64,000 nt of DNA from Brachybacterium massiliense (GTDB lineage: Bacteria > Actinomycetota > Actinomycetes > Actinomycetales > Dermabacteraceae): positions 124,001 to 188,000 of the forward strand of contig NZ_FXXB01000006.1 of assembly GCF_900184245.1 (NCBI RefSeq), given 5' to 3'. How positions within the stretch are numbered: position 1 is the stretch's first letter; every line of letters begins with the position of its first letter. This document shows, in pieces, positions 18,861 through 29,537 of the stretch. The position numbers and the translations under genes are program-made. Under the pieces are notes generated by a model. It did not search any database and was not told the DNA's origin. It saw only the letters and a list, made by a program, of their open reading frames with translations.

Positions 18861-18934
18861 GCTGCCGCTCGGTGACAGCGTCAGCTGTGACCAAGGGCCG
18901 CGGTCATCCTAGCGTCCCGTGGGAGGATCGGGTC

Positions 18935-20368
18935 ATGTCGAGCGCTCCCCACGAGACCTCCGCCACCGTCGCTGCCGTCATCCTCGCCGGTGGCGCCTCC
19001 TCCCGCCTGGGCGGGACGGACAAGACACGTCTGCCGATCGCCGGGGTGAGCGTGCTCGAGCGGGTGCTGCGCGCCGCCCCCGTCGGTCGCCGCATCGTGG
19101 TGGGCCCCAGCGGGGAGGATGGCGACGAGCTCGCCGCCCGGCACGGCGCCCGCTTCGTGCTCGAGGACCCGCCGCGCTCCGGCCCGCTGGCCGCCCTCGC
19201 CCGCGGGGTCGAGGAGTTCTCCGAGGGGGACGACGGCGCGACCGTGCTCGTGCTCGGCGGGGACATGCCGATGCTGCGCCCCGAGACGCTGCGGGCCCTG
19301 GCCGCACGCAGCGCGGCGAGCGGCCGCGTGGTCGCGCTCGAGGCGGAGGACGGCCACCTCCAGTTCCTCGGTGCCGCCTGGCCGCTGGGCCGGCTGCGCG
19401 CCGCGCTCGCCGAGACCGAGCACGCAGGCGGCGGCTGGGCCGATCTGAGCCTGCGCCGCCTCTACGCCCAGCTCGGCGGGGACGAGCTGATGAGCCTGCC
19501 CGCCACCGGCGCGGAGGGCGCGGACATCGACACCCCCGATCTGCTGGCCCAGGTGCGTCGGGCCGCGGGTCCCCGCATCGCACTGGCCCAGATCGAGGTC
19601 TCCGAGGACGTCCAGGAGACCTTCGCGACGATGCGGATGGCCGTCGTAGAGGCCGCGGAGGAAGGCGCGCACCTGGTGGTGCTGCCGGAAGCCACCCTCA
19701 CCCCCTTCGGCACCGACCTGCGAGCCGCCGCGCTCGCCCACCACGACGCCTTCGCGCAGCTGGTCCAGGAGCTCGCCGAGCAGCATGACGTGGTGGTGGT
19801 CGCCGGCTCCTTCACCCCCACCGACGACGGCCGCGTCCACAACACCGTGATCGTGCGCGGCCCGAACTGGGACCCGCACCTCGAGTACCGCAAGATCCAC
19901 CTGTTCGACGCCTTCGGGGCCGACGAGTCCCGCACCGTCGCCCCCGGGAACGAGCTGGTGACCTTCGATCTGCATGGCACCCGCTTCGGGATCGCCACCT
20001 GCTACGACGTGCGCTTCCCCGAGCAGTTCACCGCGCTCGCGCAGCGCGGGGCGCAGGCGATCCTGCTGCCGCTGGCCTGGGCGGAGGGCCCCGGCAAGCG
20101 CGAGCAGCTGCAGCTGCTGCTGCGCGCCCGGGCGCTGGACTCGACCACCGTCGTGCTCGCCGCCGATCAGGCCCCGCCCGAGGGCTACACCGGCAAGCCC
20201 GCCCGCGGCATCGGCCGCAGCGCTGTCGTCGGCCCGCTCGGCGCGGTGCGCCAGGAGCTGGGGCGCGAGCCGGGACTGCTGCTGGTGGACCTCGACCTCG
20301 AGGAGATCGCCGCCGCCCGCGCCGCGCTGCCGGTGCTCGAGCACCACGTGGAGCTGCCCCGCGCCTGA
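18935..20368 (+). CDS. Fusion of MobA-like nucleotidyltransferase and nitrilase-family amidase
   Basis: 477 residues from ATG 18935 (GGGAGGA eight bases before). Residues ~12-205 are a MobA-type domain: LAGGASSRLGGTDK (17-30) and GGDMPML around the metal-binding Asp; MobA-type enzymes join GMP or CMP to molybdopterin or related cofactors. Residues ~213-477 are a complete nitrilase/carbon-nitrogen hydrolase domain with the Glu-Lys-Cys triad at E252 (LPEATLTP), K320 (YRKIHLFD) and C356 (ATCYDVRFPE). The second part resembles omega-amidase/deaminated-glutathione amidase. The frame is open right through, with no start or ribosome site at the junction, so this is a true fusion in this sequence. 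I do not know this pairing as standard. No molybdenum cofactor genes are near. Confidence 0.88.
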   Translation: MSSAPHETSATVAAVILAGGASSRLGGTDKTRLPIAGVSVLERVLRAAPVGRRIVVGPSGEDGDELAARHGARFVLEDPPRSGPLAALARGVEEFSEGDDGATVLVLGGDMPMLRPETLRALAARSAASGRVVALEAEDGHLQFLGAAWPLGRLRAALAETEHAGGGWADLSLRRLYAQLGGDELMSLPATGAEGADIDTPDLLAQVRRAAGPRIALAQIEVSEDVQETFATMRMAVVEAAEEGAHLVVLPEATLTPFGTDLRAAALAHHDAFAQLVQELAEQHDVVVVAGSFTPTDDGRVHNTVIVRGPNWDPHLEYRKIHLFDAFGADESRTVAPGNELVTFDLHGTRFGIATCYDVRFPEQFTALAQRGAQAILLPLAWAEGPGKREQLQLLLRARALDSTTVVLAADQAPPEGYTGKPARGIGRSAVVGPLGAVRQELGREPGLLLVDLDLEEIAAARAALPVLEHHVELPRA

Positions 20369-21187: not shown

Positions 21188-21385
21188 TCACTTGCCCTTG
21201 TTGTCGTCCTCGCCCAGACCGAGCTGATCGCGGGCGGCATCTGCACCGGAGTCGACGTGGCCGTCGACGCTGTCCGGGGTGCGCTCCTTGATCCGCTCCT
21301 CGGCCGTGTTGAGGACCTCCTCGGCCTTGTCCGGGTTGTCGGAGGCGAAGTCCTTGGCCTTGTTCAGCGCGTCATCGAAACCCAT
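21188..21385 (-). CDS. MT0933-like small protein (annotated as antitoxin family)
   Basis: 65 residues. Start ATG 21385 with AAAGGAC seven bases before. The pattern MGFDDALNKAKDFASDN...AEEVLNTAEERIKERTPD followed by a Gly/Asp tail is that of the small helical actinobacterial proteins grouped as MT0933/Rv0909-like antitoxins. Charged amphipathic helices, no membrane part. No toxin gene is next to it: the neighbours are a CopC-like gene and a DeoR-type regulator. The antitoxin label is therefore doubtful here, and a stress-related structural role is equally possible. Confidence 0.75.
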   Translation of the reverse strand: MGFDDALNKAKDFASDNPDKAEEVLNTAEERIKERTPDSVDGHVDSGADAARDQLGLGEDDNKGK

Positions 21386-21550
21386 GATCCATGTCCTTTC
21401 GTTCGCGGAACCGCCCCGATGCCGGGGCGACGGCGTCAACCTATGCCGAAGAGGACACGTGACTCAAACGTGACCTCACGAGATCCGTCGATCTGGAGCC
21501 TTCTGCGCGGTCGCCCGGCCGGTCGTGGCGGAACGCGCAATACTGGCTGC

Positions 21551-22408
21551 GTGACTGTGCATAATTCTGGCTCTGACGAGAAGCGGGCGCCGCGCGGGGA
21601 GCGGCCCAGCACGCCGCCCAGGGACCGCAGCGCACGCTGGGACCACGTGCTCACCCTGCTGTCCTCCACCAAGCGCCTGAGCGTCTCCGCGGTCGCCGAG
21701 GAGCTCGGCGTCAGCGAGTCCACCGTGCGCCGCGACTTCATGGAGATGGAGCGCGCCCAGCTCGCCCGGCGCACCCACGGCGGGATCGTCGCCGTCGACG
21801 TCGCCTACTCGCTGGCCACCGTGCCGCGCAGCGCCGACGAGGGCTCCGCCCAGCGTGAACGGGTCGCGGACTGCGCCGCGGCGATGGTCGAGCCCGGGCA
21901 GATCATCGGCTTCAACGGCGGGCGCACCACCCCCTCCCCCGCCCGCCGCGCCGTGGCCCGGCCGGACATCGACTCCCGCGACGGCATGCCGGGGCTGACG
22001 GTCGTGTGCGCCGCGCTGAACATCGCCACCGAGGCCGTGCTGCGCCCCTCCGTGCGCACCGTCGTGCTGGGCGGCGTGGCCGAGCCCTACTCCTTCGAGC
22101 TCACCGGCCCCCTGGCCACCGCCACCATGCGGGACCTGTGGCTGGACACCATGTTCGTGGGCACCGTCGGCCTGGACATCGGAGCGGGGCTGACCTGCAA
22201 CTCCGACGCCGAAGCGGGGGTCACCCGGATCATGATCGGCCACTCCCGACGGGTGGTGGGGCTCGCCACCGCGGACAAGGTGGGACACCGTGCGCTGGCC
22301 GGCATCTGCCCGATCTCAGTGCTCACCGACCTGGTGATCGCCGGGCCCGTGCCCGAGGATCTCCGCGCCCACCTCGCCGAGACCTCGGTGCGCCTGCACG
22401 AGGTGTGA
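21551..22408 (+). CDS. DeoR/GlpR-family transcriptional regulator
   Basis: 285 residues from GTG 21551; the AATACT hexamer at 21539-21544, six bases before, supports a leaderless message. N-terminal DeoR helix-turn-helix (residues ~28-80): HVLTLLSSTKRLSVSAVAEELGVSESTVRRDF then ARRTHGGIV, in two overlapping motifs. The C-terminal part is the DeoRC phosphosugar-sensing domain (QIIGFNGGRTT, TVVLGGVAEPYSFE, DTMFVGTVGLDIGAGLT). These regulators usually repress sugar or polyol genes and release DNA on binding a sugar phosphate. No sugar genes are adjacent, so its targets lie elsewhere. Confidence 0.88.
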   Translation: MTVHNSGSDEKRAPRGERPSTPPRDRSARWDHVLTLLSSTKRLSVSAVAEELGVSESTVRRDFMEMERAQLARRTHGGIVAVDVAYSLATVPRSADEGSAQRERVADCAAAMVEPGQIIGFNGGRTTPSPARRAVARPDIDSRDGMPGLTVVCAALNIATEAVLRPSVRTVVLGGVAEPYSFELTGPLATATMRDLWLDTMFVGTVGLDIGAGLTCNSDAEAGVTRIMIGHSRRVVGLATADKVGHRALAGICPISVLTDLVIAGPVPEDLRAHLAETSVRLHEV

Positions 22409-22477: not shown

Positions 22478-25400
22478 ATGTGGAGTTTCCTGCGCGGGAA
22501 GAAGCGGTCGGAGCGTTCGGGCGAGGACGCGACGCCCCGCGACGACGCCCTGTCCACCCTCGCCCGCGAACGTCGTGACGCCGCGACGCAGCGGGCGGCC
22601 GAGGGCGAGCGCGAGCAGCCCGCCCCCGCCGAGCACCCGGCCACCGAGACCGGCGGCTACGAGGTGGTCGTGGACCGGCACCTCGACGAGGTCGGTGCCG
22701 GGATCGCCCCCGAGCAGGACGAGGACGATCTGCCCGTCACCCCGCGCGAGCACCGACCCCTCAGCCGCGACGACCGCGTCGCCGACGCCCTGGACCGGTG
22801 GTCCCAGCAGATCACCGGCGGGCTGCACGCCCCCTCCTTCCTCACCCAGATCCGCGCCGGGGGAGTGGTGCTGGATCTGACCCACTCCCACCCCTCGGGC
22901 CTCGCCCAGCTGCTGGCCGGGCGCGGCCCCACCCGACTGTCCTCCCTGGTGCGGGAGGTGGGGGCCCTCGCCGATGCGCGCGCTCACGCCCGCTCCATCC
23001 GGGAGATCGCCGAGCGCCATGCGGAGGAGGTGGGCCTGACCACCTGCCACCTCGGCATCGGCGAGGCGATCTGGTATCCCGAGGACGGCTCCGAGCCGAT
23101 CCACGCCCCGGTGCTGGTGCGCCCGATCACCCTGCGCCTGCGCGGCAACGCCCGCGAGGACGTCGACCTCGAGGTCGATGCGACCGCTGATCTCAACCCT
23201 GTGCTGCTGCGCTCTCTGCGCGAGGCCGGCGTGGCCGTCGACGCCCGCGCGCTGCTGGCCACCACCGACAGCACGCACGGCTTCGACCCCACCCCGGTGC
23301 TGGACGCCTTCCGCTCGCTGGGCCAGCCCCTGCCCGGCTTCCGCGTGGTCCACGCCCTGGTGGTCGGGAATCTGATGGACGCCGCGGGCTCCGTCGCCGA
23401 GGACCTCGCCGCCGACCGCCCCGACTGGTCCGCCTCCCCGCTGGTGGCCGCGCTCGCCGGGGACGAGGGCGCCCGCGCCGTGGTGCGCGCCGACGACGCC
23501 GAGGAGCAGATCCCCGAGATCCCCGAGGACGAGCTCGTCGCGGCCGTCGACCCCGGCCACCGCGAGGTGCTCGCCCGGGTGCTCGCCGGTCAGGACCTCG
23601 CCGTCGCCACCCCGCCCGGCGCCGACAGCCTCGACCTGGTGGTCGACCTCGCCCAGGAGCTCAACGCCCGCGGCCGCACCGTGCTGATCGTCTCCCAACG
23701 CCGACGCAACCTCTCCCAGCTGGTCGAGATCGCCCGCGAGCGCGGCCTCGACGAGCTGGTCTTCGACCTCTCCCCGGACCCGTCCCTGCAGCGCAACGCC
23801 TCGGCCGCGCTGCTGCGCAGCCTCCGCCGCGCCGGATCCCACGGCCTGGGCCCCGAGGACGGCGCTCCCGAGGGACTCGAGGAGAGCCGCGACATCCTGG
23901 TGGGCCACGTCGAGGCGATGCACCGCCTCCAGCAGCCCTGGGGCGCCTCCGCGCATGACGCGATCTCCGCCCTGGCCGCCCTGACCCGGCTCAGCCCCGC
24001 CCCCCGCACCCAGGTGCGGCTGCGCGCGGACGTCGCCGCGCAGATGATCGGCGAGGAGCGTGACCGCTACGCCGCCCAGCTGCGCGAGGCGGCCGAGATC
24101 GGAGTGCTCACCACCGGCCCCGAGATGACCGCCTGGTACGGCGCACCGATCAGCAGCGACACCCAGGCCGAGCGGGCCGAGGAGCTGATCGACGAGTTGC
24201 GCGAGGAGATCCTGCCGCAGCTGCGCAAGGCCTGCGCCCGCGCCGGCACCGAGCTGGGCCTGACCGAGCCCACCACCCTCACCCAGCTCGAGGAGCGCCT
24301 GGCCCTGCTGGACCGGGTGCGCACCCTTCTGGGCACCTTCCAGTCCGCCGTCTTCTCCGCGCCGCTGGCCGATCTCGTCGCCGCCACCGCGGACAAGCGC
24401 TGGCGCGAGGAGCGCGGCGTGACCATGGGCTTCGGGGTGCGCCGACGCCTGCGCAAGGACGCCGCCGCTCTCCAGCGCCCCGCCTCCCTGTCCCCGGACC
24501 TTCACCAGGACCTCGGCGAGGCCCGCGCCGTCGCCGAGACCTGGCGCCGCGCCGCCGTCGAACCCGGCGAGGGCTCCGCAGAGGCGCCCCGGGCCGCGAG
24601 CCGCCCCCACCTGCCCGAAGATCTCGACTCGGTGCGCCGCGCCGCCGCGCGCGCCGAGAAGGTGCTCGACGAGCTGTCGGTGCTGTTGGACGGCACCGAG
24701 GCCGGCGCCGACCTGCCGCGCACCGATCTCGATGAGCTCACCGAGCGGATCGAGGCGCTCGCCGCGGACCGCGCCGATCTCGAGACCCTGCCGCGACGCA
24801 CCGAGCTGCTGCGCCGCTTCGCCTTCGACGGCCTCGGAGAGCTGGTCGAGGACCTCCGCATTCGGCGCGTGCCGTTGGACCAGGTGGGCGCCGAGCTCGA
24901 GCTGGCCTGGTGGCGCAGCGTGCTCGAGCTGATCGCGGGCGCCGAGCCGACGATCTCACAGTACGACGGCACCTCGCTGTCCCAGGTCGCCGAGCGGTTC
25001 CGCCGGCTGGACGCCGAGTACCTGGCCGGTGCCTCCGCACGTGTGCACGCCGCCGCCGACGAGACCCGGGTGGAGACCATGAAGTCCTACCCGGACACCT
25101 CCCGCGCCGCGATCGCGGAGCTCGCCCGCTCCTCGACCGTCTCCATCCGCGACCTCGCCGCGAAGTACGAGGACATCCTCTTCGCGGCACGCCCCGCCTG
25201 GCTCGCCTCCCCGTACCTGGTGCCGCAGGTGATCCCGCGCGGCCGCCATTTCGATGTGGTGATCGTGGCCGACGGCGGCCGCCTGCCCACCGCCGCCGCG
25301 CTGCCCTCGATCGTGCGCGGCGAGCAGACCGTCGTGGTGGGAGACCCGCTCGAGTACGGCGGCGACTCCGCCCCGAGCCTGCTGGACGACATGCTGCGGA

Positions 25401-27109
25401 TCGCCCCTCACGTCGAGATCCTGCGCGACCCGCACCCCGCCACCGAGGGCCTGCGCGGCTTCGCCCAGCGCCGCGCCCTGGTGGGCGAGGTGGTCGCGGT
25501 CCCCAGCCCGATCGCCCCGGAGCAGGATCGCCTGATCCTCGTCGAGAACGGCCGCGGCCCCGTCACCGAGGGGATGGAGTACGTCGAGAGCACCGAGGCG
25601 GAGCTGCGCCGGGTCACGGACCTGGTGATCGAGCATGCCCGCTCGCGTCCCGAGCGCTCCCTCGCGGTGCTCACCTTCACCGAGGAGCATGCGCGGCGCC
25701 TGATGGAGCGGATCATGAACACCGTCTCCGTGATCCCGGCGCTGCGCGACTACTTCGATCCCGCCGCGAAAGAGGTCTTCTCAGTGCTGCCCGCCGAGCA
25801 GGCCAGCGGCGTGCTGCGGGACGACATCATCGTCTCGGTCGGCTTCGGGATGACGCCCCATGGCCGCCTGCTGCACCGCTTCGGCCCTCTCTCGGAGGCC
25901 GGTGGGCGCAAGGCGCTCGCGACCGTGATCACCCGCGCCCGCGGCCGCACCACCGTGGTCTCCTCGATCGGGGTGCAGGACCTCGACCACGCCCGACTGC
26001 GCAGCGACGGCGCCCGGGACCTGCGCGCCATGCTGTGGCTGCTGCAGGGGGGCCCCGACACCGCCGTGGTCCCGCACGTCGCCTCCCTCACCGGCAGCGA
26101 GCAGGAGATCTCCCCGCTTACCCCGTCGGCGCCGCAGGGACGCGTCGTGCCCGCGAACGAGCAGGCCTCGCCGCTCGCGCCGAGCACGGAGCAGCCCGGC
26201 GCGGCGGAGCCCGAGCTCTCCGACGAGGACGTCGACGCCGCGATCGAGGCGGCCCTGGCCAGGAAGTCAGGCGGCACCCCGGGCAGCGCCGCGGAGGCGG
26301 CCGACGGCACGGCCGCCGATGCCGCGGACGCCGACGTGACGGCGCAGGCCCCTGCTGAGGACGGTGCCGGCTCCGGCAGCGCGTCCGAGAGTGCCTCCGC
26401 TCCGGAGGATGCCGGCAGCGTCGACCCGGCGGAGCCCGACGCCGAGACCGGGGCCGCCCCGGCGGAGCCCGATGTCGACAACGCACCCGCCCCGCGGCCG
26501 CCGCGCGAGCTCGAGACAGACGCCCTCGTCCAGGACCTCGCCGATCGCCTGTTCCGCCTCGGACTGCTGGTCGAGCGCGACTTCGGCCTCTCCTCCGACA
26601 GGATCGAGCTGGCGCTGGGCCATCCCGAGATGCCCGGGCGCATGCTGCTGGCCGTGGACACCGACGGCTCCCACTACGTCGACACCCCGAGCCAGCGCGA
26701 GCGCGACCGGTTGCGCGCCGAACGGCTCGAGGCCGCGGGCTGGGCCACCGAACGGGTCTGGTCCTGGGCGCTGTTCATCGACCCCGACGGCGAGGCTGAG
26801 CGGATCCGCCGCGCCCTCGAGCGGGCGCTGCGCCTGGTCCAGGAGGAGGAGCGCTCCGACTCGCCCTCCGGCGTGGGCACCATTCGCCACCGTCTGCCGC
26901 GCCCGCAGGTCCCCGCCGGGCACCAGCTGTCCTTTTACTCGAGCGACGACTTCGACGCCGTGGTGGAGTACATCTGCTCCGACGGCCGCGCCCGTCTCGA
27001 GGAGCATCTGGCCACCGAGGTGCGCAGCTTCCTCGGCTTCGAGCAGCGCTCGGTGCTGCTGGACGTCTCCGTCTCGAGCGCCATCCGCCGCTATCAGGAG
27101 CGCCAGTGA
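22478..27109 (+). CDS. Very large degenerate SF1-helicase-like protein with Vsr-type nuclease region
   Basis: 1543 residues. Order: charged N-terminus (1-90); a domain resembling the N-terminal part of DUF4011-type helicases (~100-350); a RecA-like part with VDPGHREVLARVLAGQDLAVATPPGADS (spread over 357-384), where the expected Walker A GPPGTGKS reads T378-P-P-G-A-D-S384, so the catalytic Lys is gone; a coiled region (~470-800); a second half with FDVVIVADGG (925-934) where Walker B DEAS has become ADGG, then VVVGDPLEY and the late motifs DDIIVSVGFGMTP and VITRARGRTTVVSS; an Ala/Pro/Glu linker (~1195-1340); and a Vsr/MTES_1575-like nuclease region (~1345-1470) with RIELALGHPE (1375-1384), AVDTDG (1392-1397) and QRERDRLRAERL. 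So the motor looks dead while the nuclease motifs survive. It overlaps the next small gene by four bases. Role unknown; DNA repair, defence or structural use are all open. Confidence 0.85.
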   Translation: MWSFLRGKKRSERSGEDATPRDDALSTLARERRDAATQRAAEGEREQPAPAEHPATETGGYEVVVDRHLDEVGAGIAPEQDEDDLPVTPREHRPLSRDDRVADALDRWSQQITGGLHAPSFLTQIRAGGVVLDLTHSHPSGLAQLLAGRGPTRLSSLVREVGALADARAHARSIREIAERHAEEVGLTTCHLGIGEAIWYPEDGSEPIHAPVLVRPITLRLRGNAREDVDLEVDATADLNPVLLRSLREAGVAVDARALLATTDSTHGFDPTPVLDAFRSLGQPLPGFRVVHALVVGNLMDAAGSVAEDLAADRPDWSASPLVAALAGDEGARAVVRADDAEEQIPEIPEDELVAAVDPGHREVLARVLAGQDLAVATPPGADSLDLVVDLAQELNARGRTVLIVSQRRRNLSQLVEIARERGLDELVFDLSPDPSLQRNASAALLRSLRRAGSHGLGPEDGAPEGLEESRDILVGHVEAMHRLQQPWGASAHDAISALAALTRLSPAPRTQVRLRADVAAQMIGEERDRYAAQLREAAEIGVLTTGPEMTAWYGAPISSDTQAERAEELIDELREEILPQLRKACARAGTELGLTEPTTLTQLEERLALLDRVRTLLGTFQSAVFSAPLADLVAATADKRWREERGVTMGFGVRRRLRKDAAALQRPASLSPDLHQDLGEARAVAETWRRAAVEPGEGSAEAPRAASRPHLPEDLDSVRRAAARAEKVLDELSVLLDGTEAGADLPRTDLDELTERIEALAADRADLETLPRRTELLRRFAFDGLGELVEDLRIRRVPLDQVGAELELAWWRSVLELIAGAEPTISQYDGTSLSQVAERFRRLDAEYLAGASARVHAAADETRVETMKSYPDTSRAAIAELARSSTVSIRDLAAKYEDILFAARPAWLASPYLVPQVIPRGRHFDVVIVADGGRLPTAAALPSIVRGEQTVVVGDPLEYGGDSAPSLLDDMLRIAPHVEILRDPHPATEGLRGFAQRRALVGEVVAVPSPIAPEQDRLILVENGRGPVTEGMEYVESTEAELRRVTDLVIEHARSRPERSLAVLTFTEEHARRLMERIMNTVSVIPALRDYFDPAAKEVFSVLPAEQASGVLRDDIIVSVGFGMTPHGRLLHRFGPLSEAGGRKALATVITRARGRTTVVSSIGVQDLDHARLRSDGARDLRAMLWLLQGGPDTAVVPHVASLTGSEQEISPLTPSAPQGRVVPANEQASPLAPSTEQPGAAEPELSDEDVDAAIEAALARKSGGTPGSAAEAADGTAADAADADVTAQAPAEDGAGSGSASESASAPEDAGSVDPAEPDAETGAAPAEPDVDNAPAPRPPRELETDALVQDLADRLFRLGLLVERDFGLSSDRIELALGHPEMPGRMLLAVDTDGSHYVDTPSQRERDRLRAERLEAAGWATERVWSWALFIDPDGEAERIRRALERALRLVQEEERSDSPSGVGTIRHRLPRPQVPAGHQLSFYSSDDFDAVVEYICSDGRARLEEHLATEVRSFLGFEQRSVLLDVSVSSAIRRYQERQ

Positions 27110-27366
27110 GCAAGAACGGCACCGCCCCCGGCCCTGGCACCGGCGCTGCACAGCCGCGGCGGCGCGTGGTGATCTCCTCGCTCACCGGCAAGCCGATCGA
27201 GTGGGACGAGCCGGAGACGCCGAGCAAGGAGCGGCCCGCCGCCGGCGAGCATCGGCCGATCCTCCCGGACCGCGTGGCCGAGGACGCCCCCGAGCCCGGG
27301 GCCGACGAATCCAACGATGCGCGCATCGCCGGCGACGTGCCTCCGCACTGGGGCCGCGGCCGCTGA
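27106..27366 (+). CDS. Small hypothetical protein coupled to the helicase-like gene
   Basis: 86 residues, GTG start inside the stop of the large gene (GTGA, 27106-27109), so translated together with it. Basic, Pro/Gly-rich start, then RRRVVISSLTGKPIEWDEP and a charged, probably disordered tail ending in PPHWGRGR. No membrane segment, no Cys. I do not recognise it. The tight coupling suggests that it works with the large protein. Confidence 0.7.
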   Translation: MSKNGTAPGPGTGAAQPRRRVVISSLTGKPIEWDEPETPSKERPAAGEHRPILPDRVAEDAPEPGADESNDARIAGDVPPHWGRGR

Positions 27367-27500: not shown

Positions 27501-28553
27501 ATGACGGATCCCGCCCCCACTGCCATCTCGCAGCGCCCGACCCCCTCGGTGGAGCCCGCGGTGGAGACCGGCGCCCGCCCGCCGCTGCCCGAGCACCGCA
27601 ATGCGCTCGGTAACCTGCTGCGCGGTGCGCTGATCGGCGTGGTCGAGACCGTCCCGGGAGTGAGCGGCGGCACCGTCGCACTGGTCACCGGGATCTACGA
27701 CGAGCTCATCGACGCCGGCCACCACCTCACCGCCGCGGCGCGACGCCTGCTCACCGGCCCCGACCGACGCCGTGGGATGGCCGAGCACCTCCGCGCCGTC
27801 AACTGGATCCTGGTGATCCCGCTGCTGATCGGCATGGCCGCGGCCGTGCTCACCATCGCCGGGCCCATCTCCCGCCTCGTCGAGGCGCATCCGCAGACCA
27901 TGCGCGCCCTGTTCCTCGGGCTCGTGGCCGGATCCGTGCTGGTGCCGGTGCGGCTCTCGGGCGCGGCGTGGCGGCTGCCGGACCTGCTGCGCTTCACGCT
28001 CGGCGTGATCGCCGGGCTGCTGCTGACCTCGCTGCCCAGCACCTCCCTGGACCCGAGCCCCTGGATCATCGCGCCCGCCGCGGCGATCGCGGTGTGCGCT
28101 CTGGTGCTGCCCGGCGTGTCCGGCTCGTTCCTCCTGCTCAGCGTGGGCCTCTATGAGCCCACGCTGCAGGCCGTCGATGAGCGGGACCTGCGCTACATCG
28201 CCTGGTTCGGGCTCTGGGCGTGCGTGGGCCTGGTGGTCGTGGTCAAGCTGATGCGGCGTCTGCTGACCCGTCACCACCGCGCCACCATGGTGGTGCTCTC
28301 CGGCGTCATGATCGGTGCGCTGCGCAGTCTGTGGCCCTGGCAGACCGCTGACGGGGCGCTGCAGGCGCCCGGCACCGGCTGGCCGCTGCTGCTGGCCCTC
28401 GCACTCGCCGGGGCCTGCGCGGTGCAGCTGCTGGTGCTCCTCGAGTCCCGGACGGCGGCACGCGCCGCCTCCCGCGCCGCGGCCTCCGGGCCCGCCGCCT
28501 CCGAGGTTGCCGCCGGCGGTGCGGCCGCGGAGGACACCCGCCCGGGGAGCTGA
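27501..28553 (+). CDS. popT: DUF368 protein, probable undecaprenyl phosphate translocase (PopT type)
   Basis: 350 residues, about 9-10 membrane helices. The two family hallmarks are present: VPGVSGGTVALVTGIYD (residues ~53-69) and LPGVSGSFLLLSVGLYEP (~204-221), giving an inverted-repeat architecture. DUF368 proteins have been shown in other bacteria to return undecaprenyl phosphate, the lipid carrier of cell wall and teichoic acid synthesis, across the membrane. The C-terminal ~40 residues are Ala-rich and disordered. Single gene after the helicase pair, not in a cell-wall operon. The family assignment is firm; the function is taken from studied homologues. Confidence 0.87.
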   Translation: MTDPAPTAISQRPTPSVEPAVETGARPPLPEHRNALGNLLRGALIGVVETVPGVSGGTVALVTGIYDELIDAGHHLTAAARRLLTGPDRRRGMAEHLRAVNWILVIPLLIGMAAAVLTIAGPISRLVEAHPQTMRALFLGLVAGSVLVPVRLSGAAWRLPDLLRFTLGVIAGLLLTSLPSTSLDPSPWIIAPAAAIAVCALVLPGVSGSFLLLSVGLYEPTLQAVDERDLRYIAWFGLWACVGLVVVVKLMRRLLTRHHRATMVVLSGVMIGALRSLWPWQTADGALQAPGTGWPLLLALALAGACAVQLLVLLESRTAARAASRAAASGPAASEVAAGGAAAEDTRPGS

Positions 28554-28630
28554 CCCCGGGGCTGCGACGCCGCCCATCGCCGCAGGGCCACGTCGATGCG
28601 AGATCATCTGCCGCCACCTGCCCCGGCACG

Positions 28631-28636
28631 TACCCT
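28631..28636 (+). promoter_or_regulatory. -10 hexamer TACCCT, leaderless start of proC
   Basis: Seven bases to ATG 28644; no ribosome site. Confidence 0.6.
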
Positions 28637-28643
28637 GGGCAGC

Positions 28644-29537
28644 ATGGACGACGCCACCACCACCACCCCCACCGCCGACCGCACCGCCGTCGAGGCCGCC
28701 GTCCCGGCAGCCACCGGTGCGCCGGACCTCTCTGCTGCGCGGGTCGCCGTGATCGGCGCGGGCAACATGGGCGGTCCCGTCGCCCGCACGATGCGCGCTG
28801 CCGGCGTGCAGGCCGAGCACCTGCTGATCGCGAACTCCAGCCAGGCCAGCAGCGAGCGCGCCGCCGACGAGCTCGGCGCCACCGCCGCGAGCTCCCGTGC
28901 CGAGGCGCTCGCGACGGCCGATGTGGTGGTGCTTGGCGTGAAGCCGTATCAGATCCTCGACCTCGCGGCCGATCTGCGCGAGGAGCTGCCCGCCGGCGCG
29001 GTCGTGATCTCCCTCGCCGCGGGCATCAGGCTCGCGCAGATCGAGCAGGCCCTGCCGGAGGCCGCGGCCGTGGTGCGCGCGATGCCGAACACCCCGATCT
29101 CGGTGGGGGAGGGCGCCGTGGGACTGATGCGCGGCAGCGCCGTCACCGACGCGCAGCACCAGCTGGTCCATTCCCTGTTCGCCCGCGCCGGAGTGGTCGT
29201 GGACATCACCGAGGAGCAGGTCCACGCGTTCATCGCCGCCGCCGGGTCGCTCGCCGGCTTCGGCTTCGCGATCATCGAGGCGATGACCGAGGAGGCCGTG
29301 CGCCAGGGCCTCACCCGGGATCTCGCCGACGCCCTCGTGCAGCAGACCCTCCGCGGGGCCGCGACCATGCTGCTCGAGTCCGGGATGCACCCGGCCGTGG
29401 CCAAGGCCGGGGTGTGCAGCCCCGGAGGCACCACCGCTGAGGGCTATGCCGCTTTCGAGCGGGAGGGCGTGCGCGCCGGCCTCGCGGCGACGATGGCCGC
29501 CGCCGCCGACAAGTCCCGGCAGATGGCCGGGGACTGA
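28644..29537 (+). CDS. proC: Pyrroline-5-carboxylate reductase
   Basis: 297 residues. After a 30-residue Thr/Ala-rich extension comes the NADPH motif VIGAGNMGGPVART, then VVRAMPNTPISVGEGAVGL and near the C-terminus the P5CR signature in GMHPAVAKAGVCSPGGTTAEGYAAFE. It reduces 1-pyrroline-5-carboxylate to proline in the cytoplasm. The usual length is about 270, so only the N-terminal extension is unusual. ATG 28644 is supported by the hexamer seven bases before it. A hairpin follows at 29548. Confidence 0.93.
   Translation: MDDATTTTPTADRTAVEAAVPAATGAPDLSAARVAVIGAGNMGGPVARTMRAAGVQAEHLLIANSSQASSERAADELGATAASSRAEALATADVVVLGVKPYQILDLAADLREELPAGAVVISLAAGIRLAQIEQALPEAAAVVRAMPNTPISVGEGAVGLMRGSAVTDAQHQLVHSLFARAGVVVDITEEQVHAFIAAAGSLAGFGFAIIEAMTEEAVRQGLTRDLADALVQQTLRGAATMLLESGMHPAVAKAGVCSPGGTTAEGYAAFEREGVRAGLAATMAAAADKSRQMAGD

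Follow-up and report, generated by a model that had tools for sequence, protein, structure and literature searches.

Proteins that join a DUF4011 domain, an SF1 helicase and a Vsr-type domain include Hhe and ProA of NCBIfam and PDC-S37 of PADLOC, and this broad architecture is common to them and to the product of a gene of Brachybacterium massiliense that lies in contig NZ_FXXB01000006.1 (positions 124,001 to 188,000 of the forward strand, 64,000 nucleotides in all, referred to below as the window). The 1543-residue window protein nevertheless falls far below the curated NCBIfam cut-offs, and the long PDC-S37 members have intact motors. From SF1B helicases of the UPF1/IGHMBP2 type it differs by loss of the Walker A lysine, the Walker B Asp-Glu, the Q motif and motifs Ia, III and V. 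The intact DUF4011-AAA_11/12-MTES_1575 proteins resemble the window family in that they are its sister by tree, occupy an mscL locus common to several lineages with inactivated ('dead') motor motifs, and carry a PPHW tail or microprotein; unlike the window protein, they keep the motor motifs and the nuclease Asp and Glu. The reading that we favour, and hold to be narrowly probable, is that the window protein is an ATP-independent, passive nucleic-acid-binding scaffold that works with a small protein from an overlapping open reading frame (ORF).

Helicase folds without motors have been seen elsewhere. In RecC and AddB the fold serves as a DNA-reading, non-motor part of complexes with an active motor, and they differ from the present case in acting beside that motor, none being seen among the annotated neighbours of the window gene. 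PriA of Deinococcus radiodurans is described in PMC4504706 as having lost ATPase and unwinding activity while retaining DNA binding, with evidence of contact with DnaB. The likeness lies in a clade-wide loss of helicase motifs from a protein that has been kept, and in PriA working without ATP hydrolysis; PriA belongs to another helicase family, and the window protein has in addition an altered nuclease-like domain and a coupled microprotein ORF. In Pseudomonas aeruginosa one of the core flanks of a defence hotspot is a DUF4011 gene (PMC10250203), and MTES_1575 is treated in PMC3710099. No description of this pseudohelicase family was found in the literature searched, in which subscription journals were thinly covered.

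Loss of the motor motifs

The coding sequence and its parts are as follows.

22478..27109, forward strand: coding sequence of the 1543-residue pseudohelicase; stop codon at 27107-27109
22853..23377, forward strand: DUF4011-type N-terminal domain, the most constrained large part (residues 126-300; Pfam PF13195 at 169-245)
23609..23629, forward strand: Walker A position, TPPGADS, lysine lost (residues 378-384)
25259..25279, forward strand: Walker B position, VIVADGG, Asp-Glu lost (residues 928-934)
25931..25942, forward strand: motif VI, TRAR, kept (residues 1152-1155)
26060..26512, forward strand: Ala/Glu-rich linker, fast-evolving and of high entropy (residues 1195-1345; dN/dS, the ratio of nonsynonymous to synonymous substitution rates, 0.52-1.18)
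26531..26818, forward strand: Vsr-type (MTES_1575) nuclease-like domain (residues 1352-1447), with Glu1377 at the position of the catalytic Asp and Asp1394 at that of the catalytic Glu
26915..27106, forward strand: C-terminal winged-helix-like domain (residues 1480-1543)

An earlier note on this DNA, made from the letters alone, had read the Walker A and B motor as dead, and we confirm this both for the window protein and for all orthologues examined. Neither the Walker A lysine nor the Walker B Asp-Glu expected of an active SF1 helicase is present. Relative to intact relatives the protein has also lost the Q motif (DADASQQ replaced by AVDPGHR), the motif Ia lysine, motif III (GDERQL by GDPLEY) and motif V (VQGDERD by ASGVLRDD); the motif VI arginine, Arg1155, is retained, here and in all three dead clades. 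Those clades are called Dermabacteraceae-, Arthrobacter- and Cellulomonas-type, labels that rest on similarity.

The spread of the dead motor across families is one of two features that go beyond the earlier note, the other being the coupled PPHW microprotein described below. The comparison was made on 438 sequences drawn by query-based sampling, comprising 359 proteins from three lists (the best 120 of each) and 79 loci (the best of 514 relatives), sets that overlap. By a scripted rule Walker A GK and Walker B DE are both missing from 316 of them and both present in 115, while five lack only GK and two are partial; one counted as lacking only GK, L084, takes its 'DE' from an adjoining position and is dead. 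Intact GKS and DEAS motifs were looked for in the Dermabacteraceae-type relatives, as the earlier note had proposed, and GK was found in 0 of 143 (116 proteins, P0001-P0116, and 27 loci, which overlap; L023 lacks the Walker B stretch). Nor was it found in any of the 79 loci. Among the matches listed, the nearest named relatives of the window protein are Brachybacterium proteins, and the nearest intact ones are P0117 (39% identity) and P0119 (38%).

The best 120 Arthrobacter-type proteins are all dead, with PGTGQTQ or PGSGQTQ at Walker A and an altered Walker B, mostly LDAES, LDAEA or LDGES, and Cellulomonas-type loci have, for example, APAGSDV and LDAAGH. The intact group, with source names that include Angustibacter, Pedococcus and Phycicoccus (P0117, P0119, P0122-P0239), has GK and DE in 113 of 118 newly added proteins. 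Six stretches from five genomes of other families of the order comprise four dead copies (L094-L097), an intact one (L093) and a PDC-S37-type protein with an intact motor (L098); thirteen further stretches, picked from PDC-S37 scan matches, comprise ten dead copies (L132-L141), in which the lysine is replaced by A, V, G, Q or L according to lineage, and three intact ones (L142-L144). Family f7 (L094, L132, L133, L134) is a further dead lineage, with PGTGATQ, ADAG or GDAA, and ID or LD as nuclease residues. Four proteins have lost the lysine alone (P0133, P0135, P0179 and P0185, to T, T, R and A) with DEAS retained; these mostly metagenomic rows are possible first steps of motor loss, each of them a single sequence in which sequencing error is possible.

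The folds of the protein are predicted to be a UPF1-like helicase and a Vsr-like nuclease. With Pfam the MTES_1575 profile (PF18741) matches residues 1352-1447 at 62.1 bits (curated cut-off 38.2) and DUF4011 matches weakly at 169-245, and no AAA family was reached at E values up to 1. An AlphaFold2 model compared by Foldseek and VIA-align gave an SF1B fold of the UPF1/IGHMBP2 kind, and the Vsr-like fold of the nuclease-like domain was likewise recovered by model comparison, so that the structural objection foreseen by the earlier note, a lack of any match to SF1 or Vsr folds, fell away. Foldseek alone gave no match to the C-terminal model at E ≤ 0.001, and no solved structure related by sequence to the protein was found at E up to 10.

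Nuclease-like domain and PPHW microprotein

The earlier note had also described the nuclease as kept, and that is borne out for the fold; it is not for the catalytic residues, a choice of positions that we in part assume. The canonical relative L085 has VD...VECDG..YH and the intact group ID...VExDG, with the Asp present in 115 and the Glu in 118 of the 119 sequences that have letters there. Arthrobacter-type sequences keep them (Asp 123/123, Glu 120/123). The pair expected of an active Vsr-type nuclease is absent from the window protein, where Glu1377 and Asp1394 take their places, and among 135 Dermabacteraceae sequences, on the same basis, the Asp has become Glu in 127 and the Glu has become Asp in 119. 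Cellulomonas-type sequences have Pro for Asp and Leu for Glu (52/52 each); L136-L138 have lost the Asp, and L132 and L133 the Glu. Cutting by the window domain seems unlikely, though not impossible given the acidic swap; in the window lineage the domain probably acts as a module for binding or else cuts very weakly, and in Arthrobacter-type relatives it probably still cuts. The suggestion in the earlier note that the scaffold positions a nuclease is therefore doubtful in the window lineage and fits the Arthrobacter type better.

Behind the gene lies a second, overlapping ORF.

27106..27366, forward strand: ORF of an 86-residue microprotein with a GTG start and a 4 bp overlap with the stop codon (GTGA), ending ...NDARIAGDVPPHWGRGR

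It begins at the last base of the final sense codon of the pseudohelicase, and its product has an RVVISSLTGKPIEW and a C-terminal ESNDARIAGDVPPHWGRGR motif and matches nothing in Pfam or NCBIfam up to an E value of 0.1. In 65 of the 68 loci with at least 900 bp remaining, the gene is followed by an ORF that terminates near [PR]PH[WFY] or by a fused tail of this kind (24/24 in Dermabacteraceae, 38/41 in the Cellulomonas type and 3/3 in Arthrobacter, one of them fused). The same test picked up none of the 68 reverse strands and two of 381 other windows; the motif was picked after the ORF in the window had been seen. The first start, from -30 on, falls at -4 in 33 of 63 loci with a PPHW-type ORF. 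At the C-terminus of the protein itself such a tail is found in 102 of 120 proteins of the intact group, 89 of 120 of the Arthrobacter type and 0 of 116 of the Dermabacteraceae type. Intact L093, L147 and L149 have it as a separate ORF, as do dead L095-L097, L132-L138 and L141, and in L139, L140 and L148 it is fused. Among the 12 Brachybacterium copies the two motifs are well retained.

A pattern of fusion and splitting often reflects physical association. Since the two are fused in some lineages and split in others at the same gene, the large protein and the microprotein most likely act together; the microprotein ORF would be translated, and the PPHW peptide may dock on the large protein or on a shared partner.

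Locus, history and selection

The annotated neighbours are metabolic, transport or regulatory genes, and a defence-island gene was rejected on that ground. Those nearest to the gene in the window are the following.

21257..22408, forward strand: DeoR-type regulator, upstream with a 69 bp gap (its ORF start as listed is mechanical); present in 23 of the 27 Dermabacteraceae loci
27501..28553, forward strand: DUF368/VCA0040-like translocase; neighbour in 12 of 27 Dermabacteraceae loci
28596..29537, forward strand: ProC; neighbour in 24 of 27 Dermabacteraceae loci, the other three (L013, L021, L023) being cut contigs

All 27 Dermabacteraceae loci share at least one neighbour with the window, and the order in the family is, with gaps, DeoR, the gene, DUF368, ProC, TrkA, TrkH, AcuC and GTPases. 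Elsewhere the surroundings are different. Among the 43 Cellulomonas-type loci longer than 10 kb, MscL lies downstream in 36, and at least one of MscL, penicillin amidase, 5-FTHF ligase, GalU, MoeA and an acetyltransferase is present in 39, with none in L040, L044, L077 and L081. The three Arthrobacter loci run GMP synthase, the gene, 5-FTHF ligase, GalU and acetyltransferase, with no MscL match. MscL adjoins intact copies (L093, L147, L148, L149) and dead ones (L132, L133, L135, L136-L138, L141) alike, and was not found within the available stretch for L094, L134, L139 and L140. The arrangement in which the gene is accompanied by MscL, 5-FTHF ligase, GalU, MoeA and a GNAT acetyltransferase recurs in actinobacteria (L132, L133, L136-L138, L141, L147-L150, L061 and others). 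Since intact and many dead copies share the mscL locus, they are positional orthologues, and the motor most likely died in place. In the genome of the window another contig (L146) carries MscL, 5-FTHF ligase and the acetyltransferase together, without the gene, which suggests that here the gene or the locus has moved. Apart from these, a single ORF at 18872-20368 of the window encodes a fusion of a MobA-like NTP transferase and a carbon-nitrogen hydrolase.

When the motif columns were left out and eight PDC-S37/Hhe-type proteins served as outgroup, the tree placed 40 of the 41 fully dead rows in one clade (SH-aLRT, the approximate likelihood ratio test, 99). Its sister group (support 89) combines 13 intact rows with the four that lost the lysine alone and with L135, the forty-first dead row, which lies within the intact group on a long branch. 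The intact versus not-intact state requires five changes on this tree; forcing all 41 dead rows together is not rejected by the approximately unbiased test (p-AU 0.603), and its likelihood is slightly higher. With six long rows removed, the 37 remaining dead rows fall on one side of a branch with support 98, and the lysine-only rows account for three further changes. These were quick trees without bootstrap, with rows sampled by query, and several rows gave warnings for unusual composition or branch length. On grounds of parsimony, a single ancient inactivation would have been followed by different erosion in each family and by at least three later lysine losses; an independent origin of every dead lineage is not needed, one clade taking in 40 of the 41. 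From the distribution of the nuclease residues on the tree, these appear to have been altered later than the motor, in several lineages.

The claim of the earlier note that the scaffold has been preserved by selection is upheld by dN/dS, obtained by counting (NG86) for 15 pairs in all. Between the window protein and those of the Brachybacterium loci L010 (longest open piece), L006 and L028 the ratio is 0.19, 0.22 and 0.24 over the whole protein, with 0.03-0.07 in DUF4011, 0.06-0.13 in residues 801-1190 (the RecA2 side), 0.06-0.11 in the nuclease-like part and 0.06-0.08 in the winged helix (two pairs for each of the last two), and 0.25-0.30 across the first 125 residues; twelve other pairs of dead copies gave 0.04-0.29. 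Frames of at least 1200 residues lie within the contig in 69 of the 79 loci (L010 included by its longest piece, 1261 residues), and the other ten are cut by contig ends. All 13 Brachybacterium genomes have PF18741 matches of at least 64 bits, with frames longer than 1500 residues in ten, orthology being assigned by score and length. Erosion is strongest on the ATP side, since fewer of the positions invariant over the 115 intact sequences survive in all three dead clades in the RecA1 stretches (24/123) than in the DUF4011, stalk, RecA2 and nuclease-like parts (119/325; Fisher p 4.3e-4, with positions treated as independent); the DUF4011 domain retains 30 of 80, and the winged helix, with 1 of 5 kept, was left out of the comparison. 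As far as sequence can show, the window protein is a pseudohelicase, with an orthologous family, a predicted helicase fold, a conserved loss of the ATPase motifs and selection.

Possible roles

A scaffold is suggested because the DUF4011 domain, stalk, RecA2, winged helix and tail have been kept while the ATP site was lost, and because D. radiodurans PriA (PMC4504706) lost its ATPase and yet kept DNA binding. Such a scaffold would bind DNA or RNA through the surfaces of DUF4011, stalk and RecA2 together with the winged helix, the PPHW peptide would be its docking or recruiting tail, and binding and recruitment, with no part for unwinding, would be the job under selection. Several observations weigh against it. 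The retained Arg1155 of motif VI could hint at leftover nucleotide sensing, and Glu1377, Asp1394 and Asp1396 are acidic, so some residual cutting may persist. Evolution is faster in some stretches of the protein (dN/dS 0.15-0.20 for residues 350-520 and 0.14-0.40 for 521-800), and the microprotein is poorly conserved outside its motifs (mean ratio of nonsynonymous to synonymous polymorphism, pN/pS, 0.57 over 66 pairs of the 12 Brachybacterium copies). The test for a PPHW-type ORF found none at L067, L077 and L078, nor was one found for L094, no known DNA-metabolism gene is present among the annotated neighbours, and we infer from sequence both that the window protein binds nucleic acid and that the microprotein binds to it.

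Of the other explanations, a defence protein of the Hhe/ProA/PDC-S37 kind, with the dead motor as sensor and the Vsr-type domain as anti-phage effector, draws on distant matches to PDC-S37 (336 bits, from a profile without a stated cut-off), ProA (314 bits) and Hhe (164 bits), and on the occurrence, elsewhere in the order, of genomes with long PDC-S37-type relatives whose motors are intact. The NCBIfam equivalog cut-offs are 1500 bits for ProA and 2000 for Hhe, and the intact sisters P0117 and P0138 are also far under them; eleven long members of the order (L102-L112), with intact motors, reach 646-932 bits with PDC-S37. The gene is moreover single-copy, with the same neighbours in Dermabacteraceae and an mscL locus elsewhere, and two of the three dead clades have altered or lost the effector residues, so we regard a defence role as unlikely. 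A scan of the order with PDC-S37 (59 genomes) missed the window's own gene at the threshold used and so gives no prevalence. Other Brachybacterium genomes have additional intact Hhe/PDC-S37-type helicase-nucleases (L099 in G007, L100 in G010), which were not found in the genome of the window. About as doubtful is an inhibitor, decoy or heterodimer partner of an active helicase, for which RecC in RecBCD, a motorless subunit of helicase fold that reads DNA, supplies the logic. The earlier note had thought of an inhibitor or partner of an active paralogue, and this idea is not supported: the genome yielded one match to the protein, itself, and no AAA_12 match, in a search that did not extend to partners from other helicase families, and no helicase stands among the annotated neighbours. 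Three other PF18741 matches in the genome are weak (28-35 bits, frames of 310-494 residues), and no active paralogue was found.

We think it improbable that the protein is a switch that still senses nucleotide through a non-standard pocket without being a motor. Arg1155 is kept in all three dead clades, the whole of TRAR is kept in the window lineage, and PPG of the loop survives in part; against this, the lysine, Asp-Glu, Q-motif Gln and motif III Gln have been replaced, and because the replacements differ by lineage (the Q-motif Gln survives in several) they point to lost constraint on the ATP site, and in the Cellulomonas-type clade erosion has reached the residues of motif VI around the arginine. 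That the gene is a former helicase in decay, a pseudogene yet to be lost, has very little in its favour, given the open frames in 69 of 79 loci, dN/dS of 0.03-0.13 in four parts (DUF4011, RecA2 side, nuclease-like and winged helix) and a dead state common to several families; for the clade as a whole it was rejected on the frames and dN/dS.

Beyond the passive scaffold itself, it is conceivable, if somewhat short of probable, that the window belongs to a two-piece machine of the actinobacterial core genome, in which a UPF1-like helicase-nuclease stopped hydrolysing ATP early in the history of a large clade, as it also did on three or more occasions in the intact sister through the lysine alone; unwinding would have been dispensable or harmful, and an ATP-independent binding job shared with the PPHW microprotein would have been protected by selection. 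Helicases are defined by their motor, and here a helicase-nuclease of 1500 residues has outlived the loss of that motor in several actinobacterial families. The family offers a natural series of a dead motor with a live-looking nuclease (Arthrobacter type), a dead motor with an altered nuclease (the window), fully dead proteins (Cellulomonas type) and intact orthologues, many of them at one locus and most with a PPHW tail peptide, in which a non-motor role of UPF1-like proteins becomes testable. Since the motor was lost while other parts stayed strongly constrained, the task that is conserved throughout the family, in its intact members too, may be something other than unwinding.
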